From Pirellulales bacterium (GTDB lineage: Bacteria; Planctomycetota; Planctomycetia; Pirellulales; JALHPA01), in contig JANRLT010000041.1 of assembly GCA_033762255.1 (NCBI GenBank), positions 62,001-126,000 of the forward strand: 64,000 nt of DNA, given 5' to 3'. Made by a program: the position numbers and the translations under genes. This document shows, in pieces, positions 27,936 to 51,265 of this stretch. The notes beneath the pieces are model-generated. The model was not told the origin of the DNA, searched no databases, and saw only the letters and a program-made list of their open reading frames with translations. Position 1 is the first letter of the stretch. Every line of letters begins with the position of its first letter.

Positions 27936-29015
27936 ATGAATAAACCGCACGCTAGCATTGAAGGTTGTCTTTTCGGCACTGCCGTCGGCGATGCGTTGGG
28001 ACTGCCTTACGAAGGTTTATCCTCCGCCAGAGCAATTAAACTATTGGGCTTACCGACACATTATCGGTTTTGTTTTGGTAAAGGAATGATATCCGATGAC
28101 ACCGAACATACGGTCATGATGGCGACTTCCATGCTTGCCACTTGGGATAAGCTTAAAGAGGCTGGAACAGACGAACTTTTAGAATACTTTGCCACATGTT
28201 TAAAAGCTTGGATTTTAGGGGTGCCCACAGGAGTGGGGTTGGCGACCTTGCGAGCGTGCTTGAAACTATTAGTCGGAGTAAATCCCCAGCGAAGCGGGGT
28301 TTTTTCCGCGGGAAACGGTCCCGCCATGCGAGCCGCGATTATTGGGGCATGTTGCGAGAATTACAAGCAAATTCAAGCAATTGTCAAATCCTCCACGTCC
28401 ATTACGCACACTGATCCTAAAGCGGAATATGGCGCGCTTGCGATTGCTTTTGCGGCATGGCATGCTAAAACTCACAACAATATTTCCTTTGATGACTATT
28501 TACGGCATTTGGTCCAGTATTTACCCGATGATCCCGTCGCAAAGCAGTTGATTTCTCTTTTACAGCAAGCGCGAAGTTCACAACTTCAGAATCAATCCAC
28601 GAGTGAATTTGCGACTGCGTTGGGCTGTCAACACGGTGTTTCTGGATATGTATTTCACACAGTTCCCGTGGCCATTCACGCTTGGATCTGTTATCCCGGG
28701 GATTATCGCTCTGCCGTGACAGCCGTCATCCGTTGTGGGGGTGACACCGATACCACAGCCGCAATTGTGGGAGGAATTGTGGGGAGCGCTTGTGGTAAGG
28801 CTGGAATACCCGCTGAATGGTTATTGCATCTATCGGATTGGCCAATCACACACTCTTGGATGAATGATTTAGCACAACAATTAGCGGCTAAAGTCCAGGG
28901 ACAGAAGGCTATGTCAGTCAGGATGCCTATGATTTGGTGTTTTTACCCTCGCAACTTTCTGTTTTTATGTATTGTCCTTATGCACGGTTTTCGTCGACTA
29001 TTTCCTCCCTACTAA
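27936..29015 (+). CDS. ADP-ribosylglycohydrolase (DraG) family protein
   Basis: A 359-residue protein of the family that removes ADP-ribose from proteins or small molecules. GCLFGTAVGDALGLPYEG is the family opening. ISDDTEHTVM supplies the first metal-binding S/D/T cluster and RCGGDTDTTAAIVGGIVGS the second, so both magnesium sites are intact. The substrate is not predictable. The last ~35 residues form an extra hydrophobic tail (IWCFYPRNFLFLCIVLM) that could be a membrane anchor or read-through into non-coding sequence. Base composition is AT-richer than the neighbours, which suggests recent acquisition. Confidence 0.87.
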   Translation: MNKPHASIEGCLFGTAVGDALGLPYEGLSSARAIKLLGLPTHYRFCFGKGMISDDTEHTVMMATSMLATWDKLKEAGTDELLEYFATCLKAWILGVPTGVGLATLRACLKLLVGVNPQRSGVFSAGNGPAMRAAIIGACCENYKQIQAIVKSSTSITHTDPKAEYGALAIAFAAWHAKTHNNISFDDYLRHLVQYLPDDPVAKQLISLLQQARSSQLQNQSTSEFATALGCQHGVSGYVFHTVPVAIHAWICYPGDYRSAVTAVIRCGGDTDTTAAIVGGIVGSACGKAGIPAEWLLHLSDWPITHSWMNDLAQQLAAKVQGQKAMSVRMPMIWCFYPRNFLFLCIVLMHGFRRLFPPY

Positions 29016-29525
29016 CCCTTTCTGATTAGATTGGTTTAATTATACCCTTAAATTTATCGGCATTTTTCAGCTTCCCCCGCCCCCCTTGCTAGCAAAAATC
29101 GCTGTAGCCGAATTCTCTCAGATCGACTAAATTCACCCAATGACCTGGGTCGCGGGGCTTGCCCCGCTTGCCAGCGACTGCTGTGGTACAGGCTTTCGAT
29201 TGCCAACCCACGTCTCGATCAAACACCGGATTGCGACTGAATGTTTGTAAAGGAAAGAGATGAATCGGGCCTTTGGCCCTGACAATTTACTGGACTTAAC
29301 ACCTAGGGCGACGCTGCGCTTGCCCTAGGCTGATATAGGTCGGGCCTTTGGCCCGCAAAGATTGAAACGCCGTTGTACCAGACAAACAATAACGATTGGT
29401 CACCCAACAATACCCCCCTGCCCTGTTAAACACTACTGGCCAAAGGCGTGTGGGCGGGTTTAAGAAAAGATTCCCACGATTGGGAATCGCATGATTGGCC
29501 AGATTTGTGCAGGGAGGCACCCTCA
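29016..29525. other. gene-free stretch with a family-A repeat
   Basis: Holds the dispersed palindromic repeat at 29266-29361, and further left CGCGGGGCTTGCCCCGCTTG (about 29152-29171), a GC hairpin. The promoter of the YhaO/YhaN-like pair should lie in 29365-29510. No gene seen. Confidence 0.5.
29266..29361 (+). repeat. dispersed palindromic repeat family A, copy 2
   Basis: CGGGCCTTTGGCCC, spacer, CCTAGGGC...GCCCTAGG core, then CGGGCCTTTGGCCCGCAAAG. Same architecture as 1881-1978, with T in place of G at the centre of both outer palindromes. This looks like a compensated change. Confidence 0.88.
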
Positions 29526-30773
29526 ATGTCGCAATCCGCTGTCGAATTTATGCAGTTGTCCGAGCTGCGGTTGGATCAACCGTGCGGCGGACTGGTGGAA
29601 GTTCCCGACCTGTTGCGGGAAACCCTGCTCGACGCCCCGTATCGCGCGGCCAGCCGCGCGTTCGACCTGGCCCTGGAACAAGAGGTCGATTTTGTCCTGT
29701 TGTCCGGCCACACCGCCGATTTGCAACGGGCCGGGCCCCGCGCCGCGATCTTTCTCGAACAGCAATTCACCCGCTTGGCCGAAAAGCAAATCCCCGTCTA
29801 TTGGGCGGCCGGGCCAAAGGATCCCGCTTGGGAGGAAACGCTGGATGGCCAATGGCCGCGCAACGTGCGGATCTTTCCCCGCAACCATGCCGAAATTTTT
29901 AACTTTGAACGTTACGGCGTCCCCTTGATCCGTCTAGTCGGACGGTCCGGCGAAGCCAGCGCGTGGCATTTGAACGACCATGTCATTACTGAATCGCCCC
30001 TCTTTACCATCGGCCTGGGCCTGGTCCCTCCCGCGCAGCCCGATGGCAAGCGGTGGGATGTCGATTATTGGTGTTTGCATGGGCAGGCCTCCGCCACTCC
30101 GGCGGAACGGCAGCATCTACCCCAGGTGGAACATGTCTGGTTCCACGCGGCGGGCAGCCCCCAGGGGCGTTCGTTTGCCGAGTTACACACCCACGGCTGC
30201 ACATTAGTCAGCGTGGGGGAGGATCGCAAGGTAAAAATGCGAACCTGCGCCACGGACGCAGTCCGGTACTTCGACGAGGTGGTCACCTGCGGCCCGCGAA
30301 TGGACCACAAGGCGTGCGAAGCGGCCGTTTTGCGGCGGGGAGCGGCCCTGCGGGAGCAGCATCCCACCGTGACCAGCATCGTGCGCTGGACGATCACCGG
30401 CGAGGCCGAACAGCTTCCTCCGGCCTGGCCCGACGAATGGAGCGTGGAATTACTCGCGCAGTTGCGTCGGGACTTGGCTGGCGGTTCGCATCCCTTGTGG
30501 AGCAGTGGACTGCGGGTATTTTCCGCGGAAATTCCCGCGGAATTACTGGCTCAACGGACGCTGCTTGGGGACTATTTGCGTTCGCTGGGTGAGTATGAAC
30601 AGATGGTGCGGGACCAGCGGAGCGCGGCGGATTGGCCGGGCCTGGGAACGGCGGTCGCCGCGCCGGTGGCGGAGTATTTGAACTGGCATGATCCAGCCGT
30701 GCGGCGGCAATCCCTGGCCGAGGCGGCATGGTGGGGCATTCGCTTATTAGGCACCGAGGAGGTGGCGGGATGA
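29526..30773 (+). CDS. YhaO/SbcD-like metallophosphoesterase with lost metal ligands
   Basis: A 415-residue protein. The order of elements matches YhaO-type nucleases: FMQLSELRLDQPCGG at the N-terminus, DFVLLSGHTADLQ, YWAAGPKDP, VDYWCLHGQA, and GSPQGRSFAELHTHGCTLVSV. The metal ligands are largely replaced. SDxH reads SELR, GD reads GH, GNHD reads GPKD, and the GHxH region reads LHGQ. It is therefore probably a structural subunit rather than a nuclease. The start follows GGAGG at a good distance. It overlaps the SbcC-like ATPase gene by ATGA, so the products should be made in equal amounts. Confidence 0.82.
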   Translation: MSQSAVEFMQLSELRLDQPCGGLVEVPDLLRETLLDAPYRAASRAFDLALEQEVDFVLLSGHTADLQRAGPRAAIFLEQQFTRLAEKQIPVYWAAGPKDPAWEETLDGQWPRNVRIFPRNHAEIFNFERYGVPLIRLVGRSGEASAWHLNDHVITESPLFTIGLGLVPPAQPDGKRWDVDYWCLHGQASATPAERQHLPQVEHVWFHAAGSPQGRSFAELHTHGCTLVSVGEDRKVKMRTCATDAVRYFDEVVTCGPRMDHKACEAAVLRRGAALREQHPTVTSIVRWTITGEAEQLPPAWPDEWSVELLAQLRRDLAGGSHPLWSSGLRVFSAEIPAELLAQRTLLGDYLRSLGEYEQMVRDQRSAADWPGLGTAVAAPVAEYLNWHDPAVRRQSLAEAAWWGIRLLGTEEVAG

Positions 30774-33700
30774 ATATCAACTCCCTGGAAATTCATGGAT
30801 TCGGCATTTGGAAAAACTTGCACGCCGAGCGGTTATCCCCCGGCTTGACGGTGTTTTATGGCCCGAATGAAGCGGGCAAAAGCACGATCATGCAGTTTTT
30901 GCGCGGAATGTTGTATGGCTTTACGCCTGGTCGGCGGGCCAAGTATCTGCCTCCCGTCCAGGGGGGTCGCGCCGGTGGTGAATTGTCGCTCTTGCATGAC
31001 CGTGTCAACTGGACATTGCGCCGTTGGGACGAACAGCAGTCTGGTCTGGGAGAGCTCTCCCTGATCGGCGCCGACCAGCGCACTTACGGCGAGGATGCGC
31101 TCTTTGGCCTGTTGGGCGAAGTCGACGAAAACACCTACAACAATGTTTACGCGCTGAGCTTGCAGGAATTGCAGGAACTGGCCACGCTGCAAGAAACCGA
31201 CGCCGGGCGGCTCTTGTATGAAATTTCCGCCGGGCTAGAACGGGTGTCGCTGGGGGATGTGCTGCGCGAATTGCAAACATCCCGCGCGCGGCTGCTCAAT
31301 GACGGCGAGCGTCCCGCGCAACTCACCGAGTTGCTTAGTCAGCGGGACCGCTTGCGGAGCGAAATGGACCAACTGGCGGGGGAATGGCGCAATCGCCGCC
31401 GTTTACAGGATGAGCGGACCGAGTTGGAAAAAAACATCAGCGCCGCCCAGCAGGAGCAAAAGATTCTGCAGGACGAATTGCGCGTGGCGGAAACGGCGTA
31501 TTCGCTGCGGGACCTGTGGTCGGCCCGGGCCAAGCTGAACGAGCAATTATTGAATCTGGGGGCGATCGAAAACATTCCCAGCGACGCGGTCGAGCGCATG
31601 GATCAGGCCCGCGCGACATTGCGGCGGGCGGCCCAACGGCGTCAAAAGCTGCAAAAACGCCAGGCGCAGCTGCGCCAGCGGTACGCCGGTTATGCGCTGA
31701 ACCAAAATTTGTGGAAGCAAGCTCCGCGAATCCTGGCCCTGGCCGAGCACGAGCCTTGGCTGGCAGCCTTGGATCAACAGGCCCGGGACGCCAAACAGCA
31801 GTCGGCCCAATTAGAGAAAAAACTCTCCGCCTTAAAACACCAGCTCAATGTGGCGAATGAGCTGACCCCCGTCGCGCAAGAAACCCAGGTCCGCAAGTTG
31901 TCGGGCGTGCTGGCCGTGGCCAAGTCTTTGCGTCAGTCGGCGCTGCGGCTGAAGGATGTGCGGCAGTCGGTCCTCAATACCAGCGGCACGCGCGATGACA
32001 CCCAACTGGAGATTGACGAACTGCTGGCCGCCCGCGGCGAAAGCAGCCTCACCGCCGCCCTGGAAAAAACCGGCCAACTGGCCGCGCTCTACCGTCGCCG
32101 GCTGCACCTGGATGAACGCCTGGCCCAAATGGAACGCAACCGGGCCGACCTGGAATTTGACCTGCGCGAATACGACGAACTGCAGATGATTCCCACTTGG
32201 GCCAGCGTGGGCCTGGGGGCGGTCTTTGCCTTTGGGGCGCTGATGATCATGGGGGGGTTGTTTTTAACCGCCAGTTACACCGGTGACCGCAACTTTTTAA
32301 TGATATTGATTGGGGCCGCGGCCACGTTGGTCTCGATGCTGTTCAAATCGCAGCTTGAGCATGCCTCCGCCCGCAAGGCCGACGCCTGTCAAAAACAACT
32401 TGGCCTGGTGCGGAGGCAAATCGAACAGGCCACAGCCGAGATCGCCGAACTGGACGGGCAAATCCCCGAGGGGACCGGCCCTCTGGCGGCGCGATTGGAA
32501 TCCGCCGAATATGAACTGGCCCGCCTGGAGGAACTGGTGCCGCTGGAATCGCGCCGGGTCAGTTCCCATCAAGAGTCCATCAACATCCGCGAACGGCTCA
32601 AACAAGCCCGCTTGGGCTACCATAAAGCCCGCAAACGCTGGGTGGCGGCGCTGGTGGCGGCTAAACTGCCCGAAACGTGGTCCCCCCGCCAAGTGCGCGA
32701 ACTGGCCCGCCAATACCAGGACTTGGGCCACATCCACAAGCAATGGGAACACACCCAAGCGGACCAGGATCGCCGCCTGCGCGAAGCGACCGCGCTGCAG
32801 ACGCGGGTGGAACAACTGTTCGTGGAGACGGGGCTAGTCCCCGAGCAACAGTCCTTGCTGGACAACATCCGCCAATTGCGGCGCGAGCTTAACGCGCACG
32901 AAACCCAATCCGCTGAGCGGAAAAATTTGCGGCAGCAGCTATTAAAAAACCGTTCTCGGTTAAAGAGTCTGGCCCGGGTGATTCATAAAAATGAACTGCA
33001 ACGGGATCAGCTTTTACGGGCGGTGCACGCCACGGATGAGCGGGATTTTCGCGAGCGGGTGGAAAAATACCTGCAACTGGCCGATTTGACCAAGCGCCGG
33101 GACAATTACGCGCGGGAAATCCACGCCGCGATCCAGGGTTTTTGTGGCGAGGACGACTTGCTGCGGTGGTTCAAGTCCGGCTCGCGCGATTCGCTGGAAG
33201 TCCGACTGCCGGAACTGCGGCAACGGTTGGATACCCTGCAGGAACGCTTGCGGCAATTATTTGAACGCCGCGGCGCGCTGGCCCAACAGTTAAAATCATT
33301 GGCCGAGGACCGCCGCCACGCCAGCAAGCAACTGGAACTGAACATTGTCGAGGAAAAAATACGCGAGGGGGTCGCCCGCTGGCGGGCCTTGACCGTGACG
33401 CAAACGGTGCTGGATAACCTCAAGGCCGAATACGAACGCGAACGCCAGCCGGAAACCCTGCGCGAAGCCTCGCGCTATTTGCGGCGGCTGACGCTGGGCC
33501 AGTATGAACGCGTCTGGACGCCAATCGGCGAGCAACGGCTGTGCGTGGATGACCAGGCGGGGCAAACCATTCCGGTCGAAAACCTGAGCCGCGGCACGCG
33601 GGAGCAACTCTTTTTAGCGCTGCGGTTGGCGTTGACGGCGGGCTTTTCCAAGCAAGGCCGCAACCTGCCGCTGGTCCTGGATGACGTGCTGGTGAACTTT

Positions 33701-34792
33701 GACGATGTGCGGGCACCCGCCGCCGCCGAAGTTTTACGTGATTTTGCCGCGGAAGGTCACCAGATTTTGCTCTTTACCTGCCACGAGCATATTGGCCGGA
33801 TATTTAAGTTACTGGATGTTGATGTCCGCCGCCTCCCCACGCACGAGCAGCCGGATATTTGGCCGGAATTTGTCCTGGCCGACCCGGAGACCAAAATTGT
33901 AGAGGTCATTCGCGAGGTCCCGAAAATTATCGAAGTTCCCCGTGCCGAACCGGTTGCCGTGGAAGTGGAAAACAGGGATTCGCAGCCCGAGCCCGAAGTT
34001 CCCGCCGAACCGTATCCCCCCGCCCAGCCAGAGCCGCGTCGCCGCCGCCGCCGCGCGCGGGGGGAAGAGCTTGCACCCGATGCACGATTCGTCGAGCCGG
34101 TGGATTTGCCCATCGTCCCGTTACCGATTGTCGAATTGCCGATCGTGGCCCAGCCCCCCGCGCCGCCGGTGGAGACAATACGCGCCGCCATCGATTTACC
34201 GCGCCATTTTCCCCAGCCTAAGCCGCAAAAGGCGTACATCCCCGAACCGGTGGTGATTTACCGGGAGGCGGTTCGCCCCGCTCCCGCGCTGCCGGCGCGG
34301 GAACTTCCCGCCACGCCCGAACGAACCCAGGTGCTGCAGGTATTTGAACAGGTCTTTGTGCCGCGGGTGAAACTGCCCGTGTCGGCGGCTAACGTTCCCC
34401 AGCCGCCAGTGTATTCCGTGAATTATGCCGAGCGACAACCGCGTCCTCCCCGGGTGGAGCTGGCGGGCGCGGCCTCCGCTCCCCTGCCCCGCCCCGCGGT
34501 CCGTCAGCCGCAAGTGGCCGCTGTGGAATCCCAATTACGCGTCGATCCCCCGCAAAGCCCCCGCGCGACCTGGGTGGCCAAGCGGGTGAACTGGAACGCG
34601 GAAGAATTTGAAGGGGAATTGGACGATCAAGTGCGCCGCGAACGGGCCTTGCGCCAAGCCCTGGAACGGACTGACGTTACCGCCCGGGAAGCCCAGCCCG
34701 CCACGATGAATAGCAATGCCGACACGCTGCCAGGTTGGCAACTGGTCAGTAACGGCACAATGGAAAAAATCGCCGTGGAACGCGTTTCTTAG
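30770..34792 (+). CDS. YhaN/SbcC-like AAA ATPase with membrane segments in its coiled coil and a Pro-rich tail
   Basis: A 1340-residue SMC-related ATPase. Walker A is GPNEAGKST (31-39); the ABC signature NLSRGTREQLFLAL and Walker B LPLVLDDVLVNFDD lie near residues 940-980. Between them are long coiled coils (many Q/L/E/R heptads, 190-480 and 530-900), interrupted at about 480-525 by two hydrophobic segments (WASVGLGAVFAFGALMIMGG and LMILIGAAATLVSML). This is where SbcC has its zinc hook, so the coil apex is probably in the membrane. After the ATPase head comes a ~330-residue P/V/E-rich extension (VEVIREVPKIIEVPRAEPV, RRRRRRARGEE) with no known domain. Coupled to the degenerate nuclease gene upstream. 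Confidence 0.85.
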   Translation: MNINSLEIHGFGIWKNLHAERLSPGLTVFYGPNEAGKSTIMQFLRGMLYGFTPGRRAKYLPPVQGGRAGGELSLLHDRVNWTLRRWDEQQSGLGELSLIGADQRTYGEDALFGLLGEVDENTYNNVYALSLQELQELATLQETDAGRLLYEISAGLERVSLGDVLRELQTSRARLLNDGERPAQLTELLSQRDRLRSEMDQLAGEWRNRRRLQDERTELEKNISAAQQEQKILQDELRVAETAYSLRDLWSARAKLNEQLLNLGAIENIPSDAVERMDQARATLRRAAQRRQKLQKRQAQLRQRYAGYALNQNLWKQAPRILALAEHEPWLAALDQQARDAKQQSAQLEKKLSALKHQLNVANELTPVAQETQVRKLSGVLAVAKSLRQSALRLKDVRQSVLNTSGTRDDTQLEIDELLAARGESSLTAALEKTGQLAALYRRRLHLDERLAQMERNRADLEFDLREYDELQMIPTWASVGLGAVFAFGALMIMGGLFLTASYTGDRNFLMILIGAAATLVSMLFKSQLEHASARKADACQKQLGLVRRQIEQATAEIAELDGQIPEGTGPLAARLESAEYELARLEELVPLESRRVSSHQESINIRERLKQARLGYHKARKRWVAALVAAKLPETWSPRQVRELARQYQDLGHIHKQWEHTQADQDRRLREATALQTRVEQLFVETGLVPEQQSLLDNIRQLRRELNAHETQSAERKNLRQQLLKNRSRLKSLARVIHKNELQRDQLLRAVHATDERDFRERVEKYLQLADLTKRRDNYAREIHAAIQGFCGEDDLLRWFKSGSRDSLEVRLPELRQRLDTLQERLRQLFERRGALAQQLKSLAEDRRHASKQLELNIVEEKIREGVARWRALTVTQTVLDNLKAEYERERQPETLREASRYLRRLTLGQYERVWTPIGEQRLCVDDQAGQTIPVENLSRGTREQLFLALRLALTAGFSKQGRNLPLVLDDVLVNFDDVRAPAAAEVLRDFAAEGHQILLFTCHEHIGRIFKLLDVDVRRLPTHEQPDIWPEFVLADPETKIVEVIREVPKIIEVPRAEPVAVEVENRDSQPEPEVPAEPYPPAQPEPRRRRRRARGEELAPDARFVEPVDLPIVPLPIVELPIVAQPPAPPVETIRAAIDLPRHFPQPKPQKAYIPEPVVIYREAVRPAPALPARELPATPERTQVLQVFEQVFVPRVKLPVSAANVPQPPVYSVNYAERQPRPPRVELAGAASAPLPRPAVRQPQVAAVESQLRVDPPQSPRATWVAKRVNWNAEEFEGELDDQVRRERALRQALERTDVTAREAQPATMNSNADTLPGWQLVSNGTMEKIAVERVS

Positions 34793-34893: not shown

Positions 34894-36696
34894 TTAGAAG
34901 GCTCGATTTTGTAAAATTCCCTGGACGTAGCTGGACGTGGCGGTCATCAGGTCGATCAGCACAACGCTGTTAGTTTCTAACAGGTTGCCGCTGGTGCTAA
35001 TCGTCAGACCGACCGGGGGAGCGGCGGGAAAATCCGGAATCTGAGGCATGATTTGGCCATTTCCCTGGGCGGCCATGGCTTCGCGCATCAGCGAGGTGAT
35101 CAGGTTGACGTAACCACCCAGGCTAAGCAAAAACACGCCGTGTCGTTTGGCTGGGAGCAGTTTGAGCGTGGCTTCCACGTCGGATTCAGCCGCCAGGGGG
35201 TTGGGTGTTTTGCCGTAATCCTTAATAAAGTCCCTTAACAGGGCTTCGTTATAGCTCAGCACGATGGTTTGGTCGTCGATAGCCAACATGGTGATGGTAA
35301 TGGAGTCATTTCCCCCCAGCAGCCAGCGGCGCAGCATTTCGTTGATTTTTTCGGCCTCGGGTCCGGCGGCGGCCTGGCCCGTGCTGGCCATGATGGCCTC
35401 GAGTGGCATATTCAAGGTCAAGGCGGGACGGTCGTTGATGGTCGTGCGTTTCGGCTCAAAGGCAAAAGGCTTGGGGGCCGACTTAAACAGCTCATTCATC
35501 GCGGCGTACATTTCCTCGTACGCCAGCAGCGATTTTGGCGCGTCCTTGGTAGCCAGGATCGCTAGCGTGCCGTCGTACAACCCCTCGCCGGGACCGGCCT
35601 GGCCCATGACAAAGGCTCCCCCGAGCATGTTTTCATTGGACTTTTTAGCCGCGTCCACCAGCGCCTGCAGCTTCGCGGGATCGACTTTGCCATCGGCGGG
35701 GACGGCGTTAAATATTTTGGGCAATAATTCGCCGGTTAATTGTGAATAATCGTTGACCGCCTCGGGAGAGGCGGACATTTCTCCCGCCACGACAAACGGC
35801 ATGGCCGGCAGGTGCTTTAGCCCTTTGGCCATGGGTGCCGTGGGATGGCCTAAAAATTTGGCCACGGAGCCGGCTTCCTTAAAAAATGTCCGTGTATCCG
35901 TGAGCAGATTGGATTCCTCGTCAAGTTGGACGCCAATGATTGACAGTTGGGCTTCGTCCTTGAGCACAGTGAAAACCTTTTCATAGATATCAAAAACGCC
36001 GGTCGCCATCTGGGCGTTGGGCGCGTTGGCTAAGACGCCTTTGAGTTGTTGTAAGCCGGATATTATCCCTTCCATGGCTTTTTGGATGCCGGGTTGAAAT
36101 CCGATGACCAGCACATCATATTTGCTCCCCCAGGCGGCCTGGCTGCGTAAACTTTCTTCGCTCGTGGAGCTATCCTTTAGAAAAGCCTCAAACGCGTCCT
36201 TGTAGTCGGGGCTGGTAATGACGGCATAATCGCCGCGCAGGGCGACCAGCGCGCTGCCAAAGGGAAAGGTCACTTTCTTGTGGCCGTCGGCGTCCTCGAC
36301 TTCGCTATAGTTATCCAAAAAGTCCGCATACTTGCTGACCGGGATTAGGGCAATCGGCGCGGGAACCGGCTCGTTAGGGTATATACACAGGACAATTGCC
36401 CGCGACTCGTCCACGCCGTTATGGGCGCCGGTGGTCAGCTTGATCTGGGAGATGACATCCGGGGCGGGAATTTGCAATTCATTGGTCAGCTTGGAGATTT
36501 TCTCGTTTAATTCACCCGGGTTGCGAAAAACGATCGCCGCCCAGGATTTACCGGGGATGATGCTGCCCGGCGATTGATCAGCGGCCTGCGCGGGAAGTGC
36601 CGCGCACAGCGTGGAAACCAAACAAGCAAACCCCAGGCAAATCGCGGAAAACCAACGCGATTGGGGAACATAGCGGGTCAATGAACGAGTCATCAT
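34894..36696 (-). CDS. secreted planctomycete protein, paralogue of the next gene
   Basis: A 600-residue exported protein. The signal peptide is at about 15-38 (WFSAICLGFACLVSTLCAALPAQAA). The mature part has no motif I can name. It shares several landmarks with the 767-residue protein next door: GVDESR versus GVDW, LDEESN versus IDEESN, a PAKRHGVFLLSL versus PAKHNAILLVNI segment near the C-terminus, and FPAAPPVGLTIS versus FPSSPPLGLTYR. The start follows AAGGAAACG. It is probably periplasmic; role unknown. Confidence 0.75.
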   Translation of the reverse strand: MMTRSLTRYVPQSRWFSAICLGFACLVSTLCAALPAQAADQSPGSIIPGKSWAAIVFRNPGELNEKISKLTNELQIPAPDVISQIKLTTGAHNGVDESRAIVLCIYPNEPVPAPIALIPVSKYADFLDNYSEVEDADGHKKVTFPFGSALVALRGDYAVITSPDYKDAFEAFLKDSSTSEESLRSQAAWGSKYDVLVIGFQPGIQKAMEGIISGLQQLKGVLANAPNAQMATGVFDIYEKVFTVLKDEAQLSIIGVQLDEESNLLTDTRTFFKEAGSVAKFLGHPTAPMAKGLKHLPAMPFVVAGEMSASPEAVNDYSQLTGELLPKIFNAVPADGKVDPAKLQALVDAAKKSNENMLGGAFVMGQAGPGEGLYDGTLAILATKDAPKSLLAYEEMYAAMNELFKSAPKPFAFEPKRTTINDRPALTLNMPLEAIMASTGQAAAGPEAEKINEMLRRWLLGGNDSITITMLAIDDQTIVLSYNEALLRDFIKDYGKTPNPLAAESDVEATLKLLPAKRHGVFLLSLGGYVNLITSLMREAMAAQGNGQIMPQIPDFPAAPPVGLTISTSGNLLETNSVVLIDLMTATSSYVQGILQNRAF

Positions 36697-36821: not shown

Positions 36822-39125
36822 CTAATTGGTCAGGCTATCCTGCCATTCCTTAAAATCATTTCCATAAGTGACGGCGCTTTTGAGGAACTCTCCCGGCACG
36901 ACAATCTGACATTCCACGGCGGTCGGGGCCACGCGATAGGTCAACCCCAGCGGCGGCGAGGAGGGGAATTCTGGCGGCGGAGTCAGTTTATTGGCGAGTT
37001 GCGGGATAAAATCAATAAACACTTCAAAAATCATCGATTGGTAGGAATTGATCATGGGAGAAATATTAACCAGCAAAATCGCGTTATGTTTGGCGGGGAG
37101 CATTTCGAGCGTGGGGAGGATCTCGGCATCCTGGCTGAGCGCGTTTTGCTGCTTTTCCATTCCCGCCATGACATCCTCTAAAAATGTCTGGTCATGTCCG
37201 TACAGCACGGTGTTTTCATCCCAAGTCACCCAAAAGGCGTCCACTTCCAAATCGACGCCATACATCCGCTCGAAAAATTTGCGTTGAACCTCCCGTTCGC
37301 GGGGGCGAAGCGGCAACGAGCGAAGGATTAAGTCAAAATCGATCTTCATTTGCGTGGCGGGCTTGTCCCGAATGGTCAGTTCCTCCAATTCGCCAAAGCG
37401 GCTTTCCCCCGCTAGTTCCTCGTCGATCTGGATTTGCAGGTGGTGCAGTTCATCATACAAGCGGCGAAATTCCGCCGCGTTCTGAACGTCATACGCATAA
37501 AGTGTGCGGGTGTAGACGTTATCATCGCTAGAGTCCAAGGCGCCTTGGTAAAGCGTGATGCTGCGAATGTTCTTCGCGATTTCACTTTGGACCTTGGCAA
37601 ATTTTTTGGCCAACTCCACGGGGATTTTGACCCCTTCCTCGTCGGCCAACTCCTCTTCGCCACTGTCCCCGGCGGGTTTCTCCCCTTGATCCGCGGGTTT
37701 TTTGGCCTTGGGTTTTTTGGTGGCGGGTTTCTCGGTGGGGGATTCCTCGGGCGGGGTCTCCGCCTCGGGTTCTTCTGTCACGGGATTTCCGTTTTCATCA
37801 AATTTGGGAGTGGCGGGGGACGTGGCGGGTTTTTCGGGTTTTTCGGCCTTGGGCTGTTCGGCATCCTTCTCCCCGGCGGCGGTGTCCCCATCCCCTTCCC
37901 CTGCTGGTGGCTCCTCCGAGGGCATGTCATCTTTAGCAGGGGTTTTTTTCTTGTTTTTGCCAGAAGAGGGCTGGCCTTCGGCATCCTCGTCTGGGTCATC
38001 CTCTCCCAGGGCATTTGCCAGATAGTATTCCTCCGGCAGTTCAAAGTTTCCCTCTTTGAGGTAACTGACCTCGGAAACAAATATGATCGGACCCTGGGGC
38101 AAGCTGTTAAGATTGAGCTTGGACGTTTGGGGGTAGGTTTGCGACCAGCGCGAGATGCTGCCATTTGCCCGATGGAGCGAGCGGATCGTCAACCCCATGT
38201 TGGATTCCTCGTCAATCCGAAAGGCAAACGCCAAAAACTGGCATTCCGCCTGAACCGCTTTGATGGTTTCCTTGGTCACGCCGATGACCACCTTGGTAAA
38301 TAACTCGTTGGCCTTGGTCTTTTGAGACTCCAGGCGGGCCTTCATGTAAGCTTCGACAAAGTCCTGAAAGATCGTGGTAAATTCCAGGATGCCGGACTTG
38401 AGCAACACCACGGTGGCGTCATTTTTGGAAATCCAATCCTCAAAGGGCTTGATCGCCTGTTCGGCCCGGGTGTTTTCCTTTAAGAACCGCTCCAGGATGT
38501 CGGCGTTGTGCCCCTCGCTCAGGACGGCATAGTTTCCTTTTTCGGCCAGGGCGCCGCTGGCCGCCCCGCCGGGAAGCCGCACTTCCTTGAGCTTGCCGCG
38601 GGTCTGCAACACGTCGAAATTTTCTAAAAACGCCTTTTGGCTGGTCACGGGAACCATCAAGATCAAGATTGGCCCATTATTGCCCGGATAAATTTGCCCG
38701 ATCAGCGGACGTTTCCAATCGACACCCTCGTCAATCTGAAACAGTGCCTTGAGCACTTCGATTGGTTCGGGAATGGGCAATTGCAAAATCTCTATCGTTT
38801 GCTTTAGCTTTTCCTGCAATTGCGCGACTTCGTTTACCACGATAAAGCCGTGCGACTTGCTATTGATCAAATGTCCTATTTTAGGACGGGGCTTCGCGGG
38901 TTGGCTGCCGGGTTCGGTGCTCAGTTTGGGTGGCTGCTTTTCCGAATCGCTTTCTTCCGGCTGGGTTACTTCCGTATTATCCGGGGTGGATGAGTCACTC
39001 TCCGCGCCATGTAGCCCAAGAGGGAGCCAGGCCAATAAGATTGCCAGTGACGCCAGCCTGCGCCAGCTTTCGCGCGGGAAACAACAGCCGATGGCCGTAA
39101 ATGCCTGTCGTGCAAATCTGCCCAT
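36822..39125 (-). CDS. secreted planctomycete protein with charged low-complexity insert, paralogue of the previous gene
   Basis: A 767-residue exported protein starting MGRFARQAF, with hydrophobic signal LASLAILLAWLPLGLHGAE. Homologous along both ends with the 600-residue protein that follows it in the same direction. An insert of about 140 residues in the middle is almost only E, P, K, D, A, T and S (KNKKKTPAKDDMPSEEPP, EKPATKKPKAKKPADQGEK), presumably disordered. Upstream in-frame codons would hide the signal peptide, so the ATG at 39125 was chosen. The pair arose by tandem duplication, and the insert distinguishes the two. Confidence 0.75.
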   Translation of the reverse strand: MGRFARQAFTAIGCCFPRESWRRLASLAILLAWLPLGLHGAESDSSTPDNTEVTQPEESDSEKQPPKLSTEPGSQPAKPRPKIGHLINSKSHGFIVVNEVAQLQEKLKQTIEILQLPIPEPIEVLKALFQIDEGVDWKRPLIGQIYPGNNGPILILMVPVTSQKAFLENFDVLQTRGKLKEVRLPGGAASGALAEKGNYAVLSEGHNADILERFLKENTRAEQAIKPFEDWISKNDATVVLLKSGILEFTTIFQDFVEAYMKARLESQKTKANELFTKVVIGVTKETIKAVQAECQFLAFAFRIDEESNMGLTIRSLHRANGSISRWSQTYPQTSKLNLNSLPQGPIIFVSEVSYLKEGNFELPEEYYLANALGEDDPDEDAEGQPSSGKNKKKTPAKDDMPSEEPPAGEGDGDTAAGEKDAEQPKAEKPEKPATSPATPKFDENGNPVTEEPEAETPPEESPTEKPATKKPKAKKPADQGEKPAGDSGEEELADEEGVKIPVELAKKFAKVQSEIAKNIRSITLYQGALDSSDDNVYTRTLYAYDVQNAAEFRRLYDELHHLQIQIDEELAGESRFGELEELTIRDKPATQMKIDFDLILRSLPLRPREREVQRKFFERMYGVDLEVDAFWVTWDENTVLYGHDQTFLEDVMAGMEKQQNALSQDAEILPTLEMLPAKHNAILLVNISPMINSYQSMIFEVFIDFIPQLANKLTPPPEFPSSPPLGLTYRVAPTAVECQIVVPGEFLKSAVTYGNDFKEWQDSLTN

Positions 39126-39529
39126 AAATTCCCCACTGTTTAAAAATGCGGTAATGACGGTTAGCAAACCGAAATAGTGGACACGATCCCGGGGATTGCC
39201 AAGGATAAGGAAAAAAAGTTGCCAGCTAGCATGGTAACGTCTGGCGGGGAGCCGGGGCAACTAACGATCGCGGAAAAATCCAATTTATGATGTCCCGGTT
39301 TGGTTTCTGTCCGCCCCGCCCCGTCTGGTCGATTGGAAAAAACGCGGGTTATCACCCATTGCTAGCAATTTGTTAGCAAACGGTCATTCCGGCACATTCT
39401 AAGTTTGCGGGACGCTATTATTTCCGTTAATTGTTCGCGATTTTTCCTAACTTGCTCTTGGTCCGTACCCGCATCCGCGTGTAAAGTTGGGCGGTTTTTT
39501 AATTGTTCCCGGGCCTTGCGAGCAGTTCC
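39126..39529. other. divergent intergenic region
   Basis: Should hold the promoters of the secreted paralogue pair (minus) and of the YdjM-like gene (plus). GCTAGCAATTTGTTAGCAAA at 39361-39380 contains two TAGCAA units. No gene seen. Confidence 0.45.
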
Positions 39530-41849: not shown

Positions 41850-42267
41850 AAGGTTGTTCTGTGCTGGATTGTAAGGATGTTGTACGATGGATTAGGTTAT
41901 AGGCCGCGATATAGCAAATCACAATCCAACTTGCTTAATCCCGCGCATCTGGCTCTGGCACCCTACTTAGGCTAAATTGAGCTTTGGCTATCCGTATTGG
42001 TAACCCTTCAAATCTTCGCGACTTGCGAAGATTATTCGTTGACCAAACATATTGGGCCAAAGGCGTTTGATTTTTTGCGGGCCAAAGGCCCGACCTATCT
42101 CAGCCTAGGGCAAGCGCAGGGTCGCCCTCGGTAAATGGGATAAGAAAAATGGAAGGGCCAACGGCCCGTTTCATCCACTTTAACCAACGATTCAACCGTC
42201 CCTTAGGTTTCGGGGCTGAAGCCCGAACTACGACTATTCCGTCACTTTTTTACGAGGCCGGATCCTG
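41850..42267. other. gene-free stretch with a family-A repeat
   Basis: Contains CGAAGATTATTCGTTGACC at 42026-42044 (also at 49861) and directly after it an inverted family-A repeat (42074-42168). The promoter of the sugar-acid operon should be in the last 100 bases. No gene seen. Confidence 0.5.
42074..42168 (-). repeat. dispersed palindromic repeat family A, copy 3 (inverted)
   Basis: TTTGCGGGCCAAAGGCCCG, CCTAGGGC core with GGGTCGCCCTCGG (one arm diverged), then GGGCCAACGGCCCG. It is the reverse complement of the layout at 1881, 29266 and 51080. Confidence 0.85.
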
Positions 42268-49860: not shown

Positions 49861-49960
49861 CGAAGATCATTCGTTGACCAAGCATTTGCGGGCCAAGAAC
49901 GCTTAACCCTGTGTGGGCCAAAGGCCCGATTCATGATGCAAGTAGCCTAGGGGTCGGGAG
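49861..49960 (-). repeat. degraded family-A repeat with its left neighbour
   Basis: CGAAGATCATTCGTTGACC followed by GCGGGCC, GGGCCAAAGGCCCGATTCAT and CCTAGGGG. The order matches 42026-42168 but the core palindrome is mostly lost. Confidence 0.5.
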
Positions 49961-50916: not shown

Positions 50917-51265
50917 ACGACCATTCAAACAAATCAGCTCATTCCGTTTGCCGCTCGGGAGCATAGCTTGAGTCGGCAATTTGCTTCGTCCGCCGCCGTG
51001 CAACTTGTATCACCTAGCGCGAACTTTGTCCGCAAGTTAAGGGCTTTTGTGTTGAATGTTTGTAGGCAACGCCATAAATCGGGCCGTTGGCCCTTCCCTA
51101 TTCACTGAATATAAACCTAGGGCGACGCTGCGCTTGCCCTAGGCTGGGATAGGTCGGGCCGTTGGCCCGCAAAGAGTCAATCGCTTTTGACCAGCAACTG
51201 CTTGCATAACGGAAAGTATTCGCGCAACTCAAAGAATTCAACGATTAGTCATACGGGGACTCCCC
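50917..51265. other. gene-free stretch with a family-A repeat
   Basis: Holds the repeat at 51080-51174. The rest shows no gene or clear promoter. Confidence 0.5.
51080..51174 (+). repeat. dispersed palindromic repeat family A, copy 4
   Basis: CGGGCCGTTGGCCC, spacer, CCTAGGGC...GCCCTAGG core, then CGGGCCGTTGGCCCGCAAAG. Nearly identical to copies 1 and 2. Confidence 0.88.

Follow-up and report, generated by a model that had tools for sequence, protein, structure and literature searches.

Two adjoining genes of a Pirellulales genome probably encode a Rad50-Mre11-like complex of the YhaNO/SbcEF type that has turned non-cutting and would act as a membrane-tethered DNA clamp or end sensor gated by ATP, with the former nuclease as its scaffold. 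Both genes lie on the + strand of the window, the whole DNA stretch of 64,000 nucleotides that was analysed (contig position = window position + 62000; assembly completeness 96.6%), as do all features of the pair given below. The upstream gene (29526–30773) encodes a pseudonuclease subunit of 415 amino acids, a homologue of YhaO, SbcD and Mre11 in which the metal ligands and the catalytic histidine are all replaced. The downstream gene (30770–34792) encodes a YhaN/SbcE-like ATPase of 1340 amino acids, whose ABC/SMC-type head is split by a coiled coil. A first-pass annotation of this DNA had already placed the pair at 29526–34792 with an ATGA overlap, and its coordinates, its frames and the overlap (30770–30773) were right.

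Homologues were found with the window protein as query in genomes of the same order and were then read as loci, in which the nuclease and ATPase genes adjoin each other. They split into two paralogous pairs: class A resembles the pair of the window, while the nuclease of class B has intact DxH, GD, GNHD, H and GHxH motifs.

Fold and metal site of the pseudonuclease

A single-sequence search with the pseudonuclease alone yielded no match in Pfam or the PDB. The profile of its family (class A) matched Mre11 in the PDB with an E-value of 1.7e-5, and the class B nuclease profile did so more strongly (6e-16). Furthermore, the nuclease profiles of the two classes aligned end to end (398 columns, E 7e-53). 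The AlphaFold model of the pseudonuclease (pLDDT 86.1, pTM 0.86) had its best structural matches in Mre11/SbcD (E 3.4e-11; Z 22.0, 276 aligned residues, rmsd 3.7 Å), and we have high confidence that the modelled protein keeps the Mre11 fold with its capping domain. C-terminal helices (residues 346–410, 30561–30755) appear in the predicted secondary structure at the position of the Rad50-binding region of Mre11, the structure 7yzo_A being aligned through residue 415. Among the pseudonucleases the C-terminal positions are conserved, as is a non-catalytic core around SPQGR.

Ligand columns were assigned by alignment and are numbered according to P. furiosus Mre11. In motif I (residues 13–15, 29562–29570, coordinates derived from residue numbers) ELR replaces DxH, with E13 for D8 and R15 for H10. 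The bridging Asp of motif II, D49, is replaced by H62 (29709–29711; SGH for GD). Motif III (residues 96–99, 29811–29822) reads GPKD for GNHD, with P97 for N84 and K98 for the catalytic H85, while D99 is kept. In motif IV the metal-binding H173 has become L166 (30021–30023), and in motif V (residues 185–188, 30078–30089) HGQA replaces GHxH, with G186 for H206 and A188 for H208. The first-pass annotation had claimed replacements at nearly every motif; by alignment all seven ligand positions and the catalytic His are concerned, including the motif IV His that it had not listed. Its reading of LHGQ for GHxH was correct as to the loss and off by one residue in register. Likewise, its proposal of a fold that is kept while catalysis is lost agrees with the model for the former and with the alignment for the latter.

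According to this, the window protein shares with YhaO/SbcF the Mre11-type fold and end-to-end homology, and at the positions of the family's ligands D, H, D, N, H, H, H and its catalytic His it carries E, R, H, P, L, G, A and K. Owing to this failure at the metal site it is regarded as a YhaO/SbcF homologue and is not filed as a nuclease of that family. Neither a match to the SbcD profile TIGR00619 nor an intact paralogue was found in the window's genome, and the pseudonuclease is thus the only Mre11 relative detected there.

Distribution and course of the ligand loss

The search with the window protein detected a homologue in 50 of 57 sampled genomes of the order, and the profile search detected class A in 38 of 39; in family f8 class A is apparently absent by both searches. 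The homologue alignment proposed by the first-pass annotation revealed a clade-wide loss, since N84, H85 and H206 are missing in all 44 degenerate homologues checked. Within this set the columns of N84 and H85 are at least as variable as the average one (column entropy at the 93rd and 60th percentile, respectively), 36 members share a Gly in place of H206, D86 is kept in 37, and D8, H10 and D49 are kept in part of the members. Mre11-Rad50 complexes in which the catalytic His is mutated still hold together but have no nuclease activity. As the whole clade has lost this residue together with neighbouring ligands, homology implies that two-metal cutting no longer takes place.

The 42 pairs of pseudonuclease and hairpin-carrying ATPase formed one clade with a support of 100/100 in a tree that was built without outgroup rooting. 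All four ligands of the first metal site (D8, H10, D49, H208) are kept in 18 of the 42 members and not in the other 24. On the tree the loss of this site needs 9 changes, at least 5 of them forced by well-supported branches. The window stands beside L031/L035, in which the site is lost, and L038/L039, in which it is kept (moderate node support, 96/78), and the loss in its lineage looks independent. Read most simply, the losses began at the base of the clade with the catalytic His and two second-metal ligands, and the first-metal site was eroded later and repeatedly. The window protein is an end point of this erosion.

Four loci of Planctomycetota outside the class (L109, L110, L111 and L113) combine a hairpin ATPase with a fully intact nuclease, which is likely the ancestral state. 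Judged by sequence, a membrane apex and an intact nuclease occur together widely and the dead members form a single clade; nuclease death is therefore most simply a derived state.

For two closely related pairs of genes, dS was unsaturated (about 0.59) and the dN/dS of the nuclease amounted to 0.048 and 0.115, in both cases below that of the ATPase; these values apply to two pairs other than that of the window, whose protein has no close relative in the sample. The nuclease of the two measured pairs is under purifying selection. Pseudogene decay was ruled out by open reading frames across the order and the low dN/dS of these pairs.

ATPase head, apex and tail

The N-terminal part of the ATPase matched AAA_27 (PF13514) with 71.7 bits at a curated cut-off of 22. 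The ABC/SMC-type motifs are Walker A (GPNEAGKS, residues 31–38, 30860–30883), the signature (LSRGTREQ, residues 939–946, 33584–33607) and Walker B (PLVLDD, residues 967–972, 33668–33685), whose final DD is shared by the other members read. The motifs are invariant among the members compared. AAA_27 was matched twice more in the window's genome, at G000:C7 and at C44; the protein at G000:C7 was rejected as a second family member, being an ordinary SMC by its sequence.

At the apex of the coiled coil two hydrophobic helices were recognised by hydrophobicity and in the model (residues 480–498, 32207–32263, and residues 509–527, 32294–32350), as in membrane-type YhaN/SbcE. A zinc hook was rejected for this apex, as no CxxC is present in the window ATPase. 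Membrane insertion was estimated as a damped sum of biological hydrophobicity, our own approximation of the published scale; by this estimate the two segments scored −1.8 and −1.1, compared to +5.1 for the next best stretch. In membrane-type members the two best hydrophobic stretches lie at the apex and the third is clearly worse, while in soluble members the best stretch anywhere scores about +3 or worse. In a minority of members the second apex helix scores as marginal. Class A ATPases carry the helices at about residues 480–530, in the centre of the coiled coil, where class B has none. In the ATPase model (pLDDT 82.6; pTM 0.40, as expected for long coiled coils) helices 476–498 and 501–564 lie between the arms and outside any globular domain. 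Estimates and model thus favour a membrane-type hairpin in place of the zinc hook, as the first-pass annotation had claimed, over segments buried in a soluble fold, which it had named as the finding that would speak against it. Its view that the membrane apex is unexplained did not hold. YhaN of Listeria, Latilactobacillus and Enterococcus and that of the haloarchaeon Natrinema have the hydrophobic helices of the hairpin at the same place, beside an intact nuclease. The apex was consequently rejected as a novelty on the basis of the Firmicute and archaeal members.

Behind the head follows a Pro/Glu/Arg-rich tail (residues 1021–1340, 33830–34789). The first-pass annotation had put it at 330 residues; the tail exists, and its measured length is 320–326 residues. 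Class A members of the order mostly extend 80–340 residues past the head, often with an acidic, Pro-rich composition, whereas intact membrane-type members have almost no tail. Members of families f1, f10, f14, f17 and f19 carry a motif W-x-AEEF-x-GEL-x-D in their tails. Searched as a DNA pattern, its core AEEFxGEL matched 14 of 196 genomes, once each, and the reversed control pattern none; coordinates confirmed a location in the tail for the loci read, a subset of the 14. In the window the motif reads AEEFEGELDD (34598–34627; pattern match G000:C41:96598-96627, offset 62000). In the sister clade, family f21 of the same class, the pair L100 has DUF4332 (HhH-like) domains at the position of the tail, while most other members of f21 have no tail. 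What had been called an unexplained tail is thus partly explained, as a feature of the order-level clade that is mostly of low complexity, with one motif and with DUF4332 in the sister clade. The window's genome yielded no DUF4332 match. In the more divergent loci L098 and L099 a degenerate nuclease is paired with an ATPase-like protein that has no apex helices and carries two DUF4332 domains at its end, and in L127, a member of the order, a stand-alone DUF4332 gene (616–1281, −) lies directly downstream of the pseudonuclease pair.

The survey of gene neighbours revealed a single link. Of 37 class A loci, 7 have a PcrA/UvrD-type helicase gene (products about 60–65% identical) 0.06 to 2.4 kb upstream of the pair, in the same orientation; it is absent in the window and in most class A loci. 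Upstream of the window pair an ADP-ribosylglycohydrolase gene was observed (27936–29015, +), for which no conserved link was seen in relatives. Two neighbouring paralogous genes (34894–36696 and 36822–39260, −; 27% identity, E 2e-27) have no Pfam match, and their products are probably exported. In addition, the palindrome GGGCC(T/G)TTGGCCC is present in 8 copies in the window compared to 0.33 expected, often paired about 75 bp apart (1959–1971, 29267–29279, 29342–29354, 42079–42091, 42155–42167, 49915–49927, 51081–51093 and 51156–51168), and is a dispersed repeat.

Proposed role and comparison with known systems

An ordinary active SbcEF/YhaNO repair nuclease with misread motifs, which would cut DNA ends like SbcCD, is extremely unlikely. 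The homology to YhaO and Mre11 is certain and the order of nuclease and ATPase genes is that of Firmicutes, but neither H85 nor any of the 7 ligands survives, and the window sequence speaks against two-metal catalysis. Misread motifs with intact ligands were ruled out by the profile alignment and by the alignment with intact paralogues and with Firmicute and archaeal members, which confirmed the register. A swapped chemistry, in which the old pocket would take up a single metal, a nucleotide or some other small ligand and serve a sensor or a different hydrolase, is less remote, though still unlikely: the retention of all first-site ligands in 18 of 42 members, of D86 in 37 of 44 and of the Gly at H206 in 36 of 44 would suit it, while that site was lost repeatedly, in the window protein as well, and the free variation of N84 and H85 means that no shared new catalytic set is visible. 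One-metal or altered activity may exist in the 18 members.

The progressive erosion of the ligands could also reflect relaxed constraint on a nuclease heading for loss, as the passenger or mere stabiliser of an ATPase that works alone. This is improbable in view of the low dN/dS, the slower evolution of the nuclease than of the ATPase in both measured pairs, the near-universal retention and the conserved C-terminal positions. We consider a Lamassu-type anti-phage or anti-plasmid system very unlikely. The ATPase resembles the LmuB profile weakly (E 2.7e-8, over coiled coil and head), a similarity explained by shared SMC/Rad50 ancestry; no recognisable effector gene stands beside the LmuB-like gene or among its neighbours, and defence systems are patchily distributed, unlike this pair, which nearly all sampled genomes of the order carry.

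The non-cutting clamp or end sensor is the reading that we favour, and tethering or sensing DNA without cutting would fit all the evidence. As fold, C-terminal positions and ATPase motifs are conserved, the clamp arguably still works. Two ATPases would be anchored by their apex hairpins with the heads some tens of nanometres inside the cytoplasm, and a pseudonuclease dimer would bridge the heads as in Mre11-Rad50. Binding and hydrolysis of ATP would close and open the clamp on DNA ends or membrane-near DNA, and its reach, with the apex embedded in the membrane, would cover DNA within tens of nanometres of it. The disordered tail could recruit processing or repair partners. The job of the complex would be to tether, guard or signal DNA ends at the membrane, while other enzymes would do any cutting. 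More tentatively, an Mre11-Rad50-like repair nuclease may have become, in Planctomycetia, a specialised membrane anchor that runs on ATP and holds chromosomal DNA (ends, forks or nucleoid) without cutting it; the dead nuclease would serve as clamp jaw and the disordered tail as recruiting arm.

The family would represent a natural, order-wide nuclease-dead complex of the Mre11-Rad50 type, apparently selected for something besides cutting. In it the structural role of a universal machine would stand apart from the catalytic one, and its members offer a graded series of ligand loss. Planctomycetes have an unusual nucleoid and unusual membranes, and the complex is a candidate DNA–membrane link in them.

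In B. subtilis, SbcE and SbcF are YhaN and YhaO, respectively. SbcE is cited as a double-strand-break repair protein in two papers (PMC4205851, PMC3896406). The SbcEF/YhaNO pairs of Firmicutes that were read (Listeria, Latilactobacillus, Enterococcus) share with the window an AAA_27-type head, the coiled coil with a two-helix hydrophobic apex, the lack of a zinc hook and an Mre11-like gene adjoining upstream. Unlike in the window, all nuclease ligands are intact, the ATPases have about 900 amino acids and no tail, and an HD-domain gene (YhaM type) lies alongside. Two annotated Firmicute records show the order exonuclease, ATPase and HD-domain protein, as in yhaO-N-M. The 2.9 Mb Listeria record L156 (NZ_CP030101.1) is filed as a plasmid and is apparently a chromosome. 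The class B pair of Planctomycetota and YhaN of Sphingomonas represent a homologous pair in the same gene order, but without hydrophobic segments at the apex or a long tail and with an intact nuclease. SbcCD/Mre11-Rad50 likewise has an Mre11 fold and an ABC-type head on a coiled coil; the window pair differs by its membrane-type apex instead of a CxxC zinc hook, the missing metal site and the lack of a TIGR00619 match. The B-subunits of eukaryotic DNA polymerases are inactivated calcineurin-like phosphoesterases and thus also retain this fold as a scaffold after ligand loss, although in an unrelated complex with another partner. No account of an order-wide pseudonuclease whose ATPase partner carries an added tail turned up in the literature searched, which included few subscription papers. 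The kind of complex is already known as YhaNO/SbcEF; new are the clade-wide death of the nuclease and the tail.
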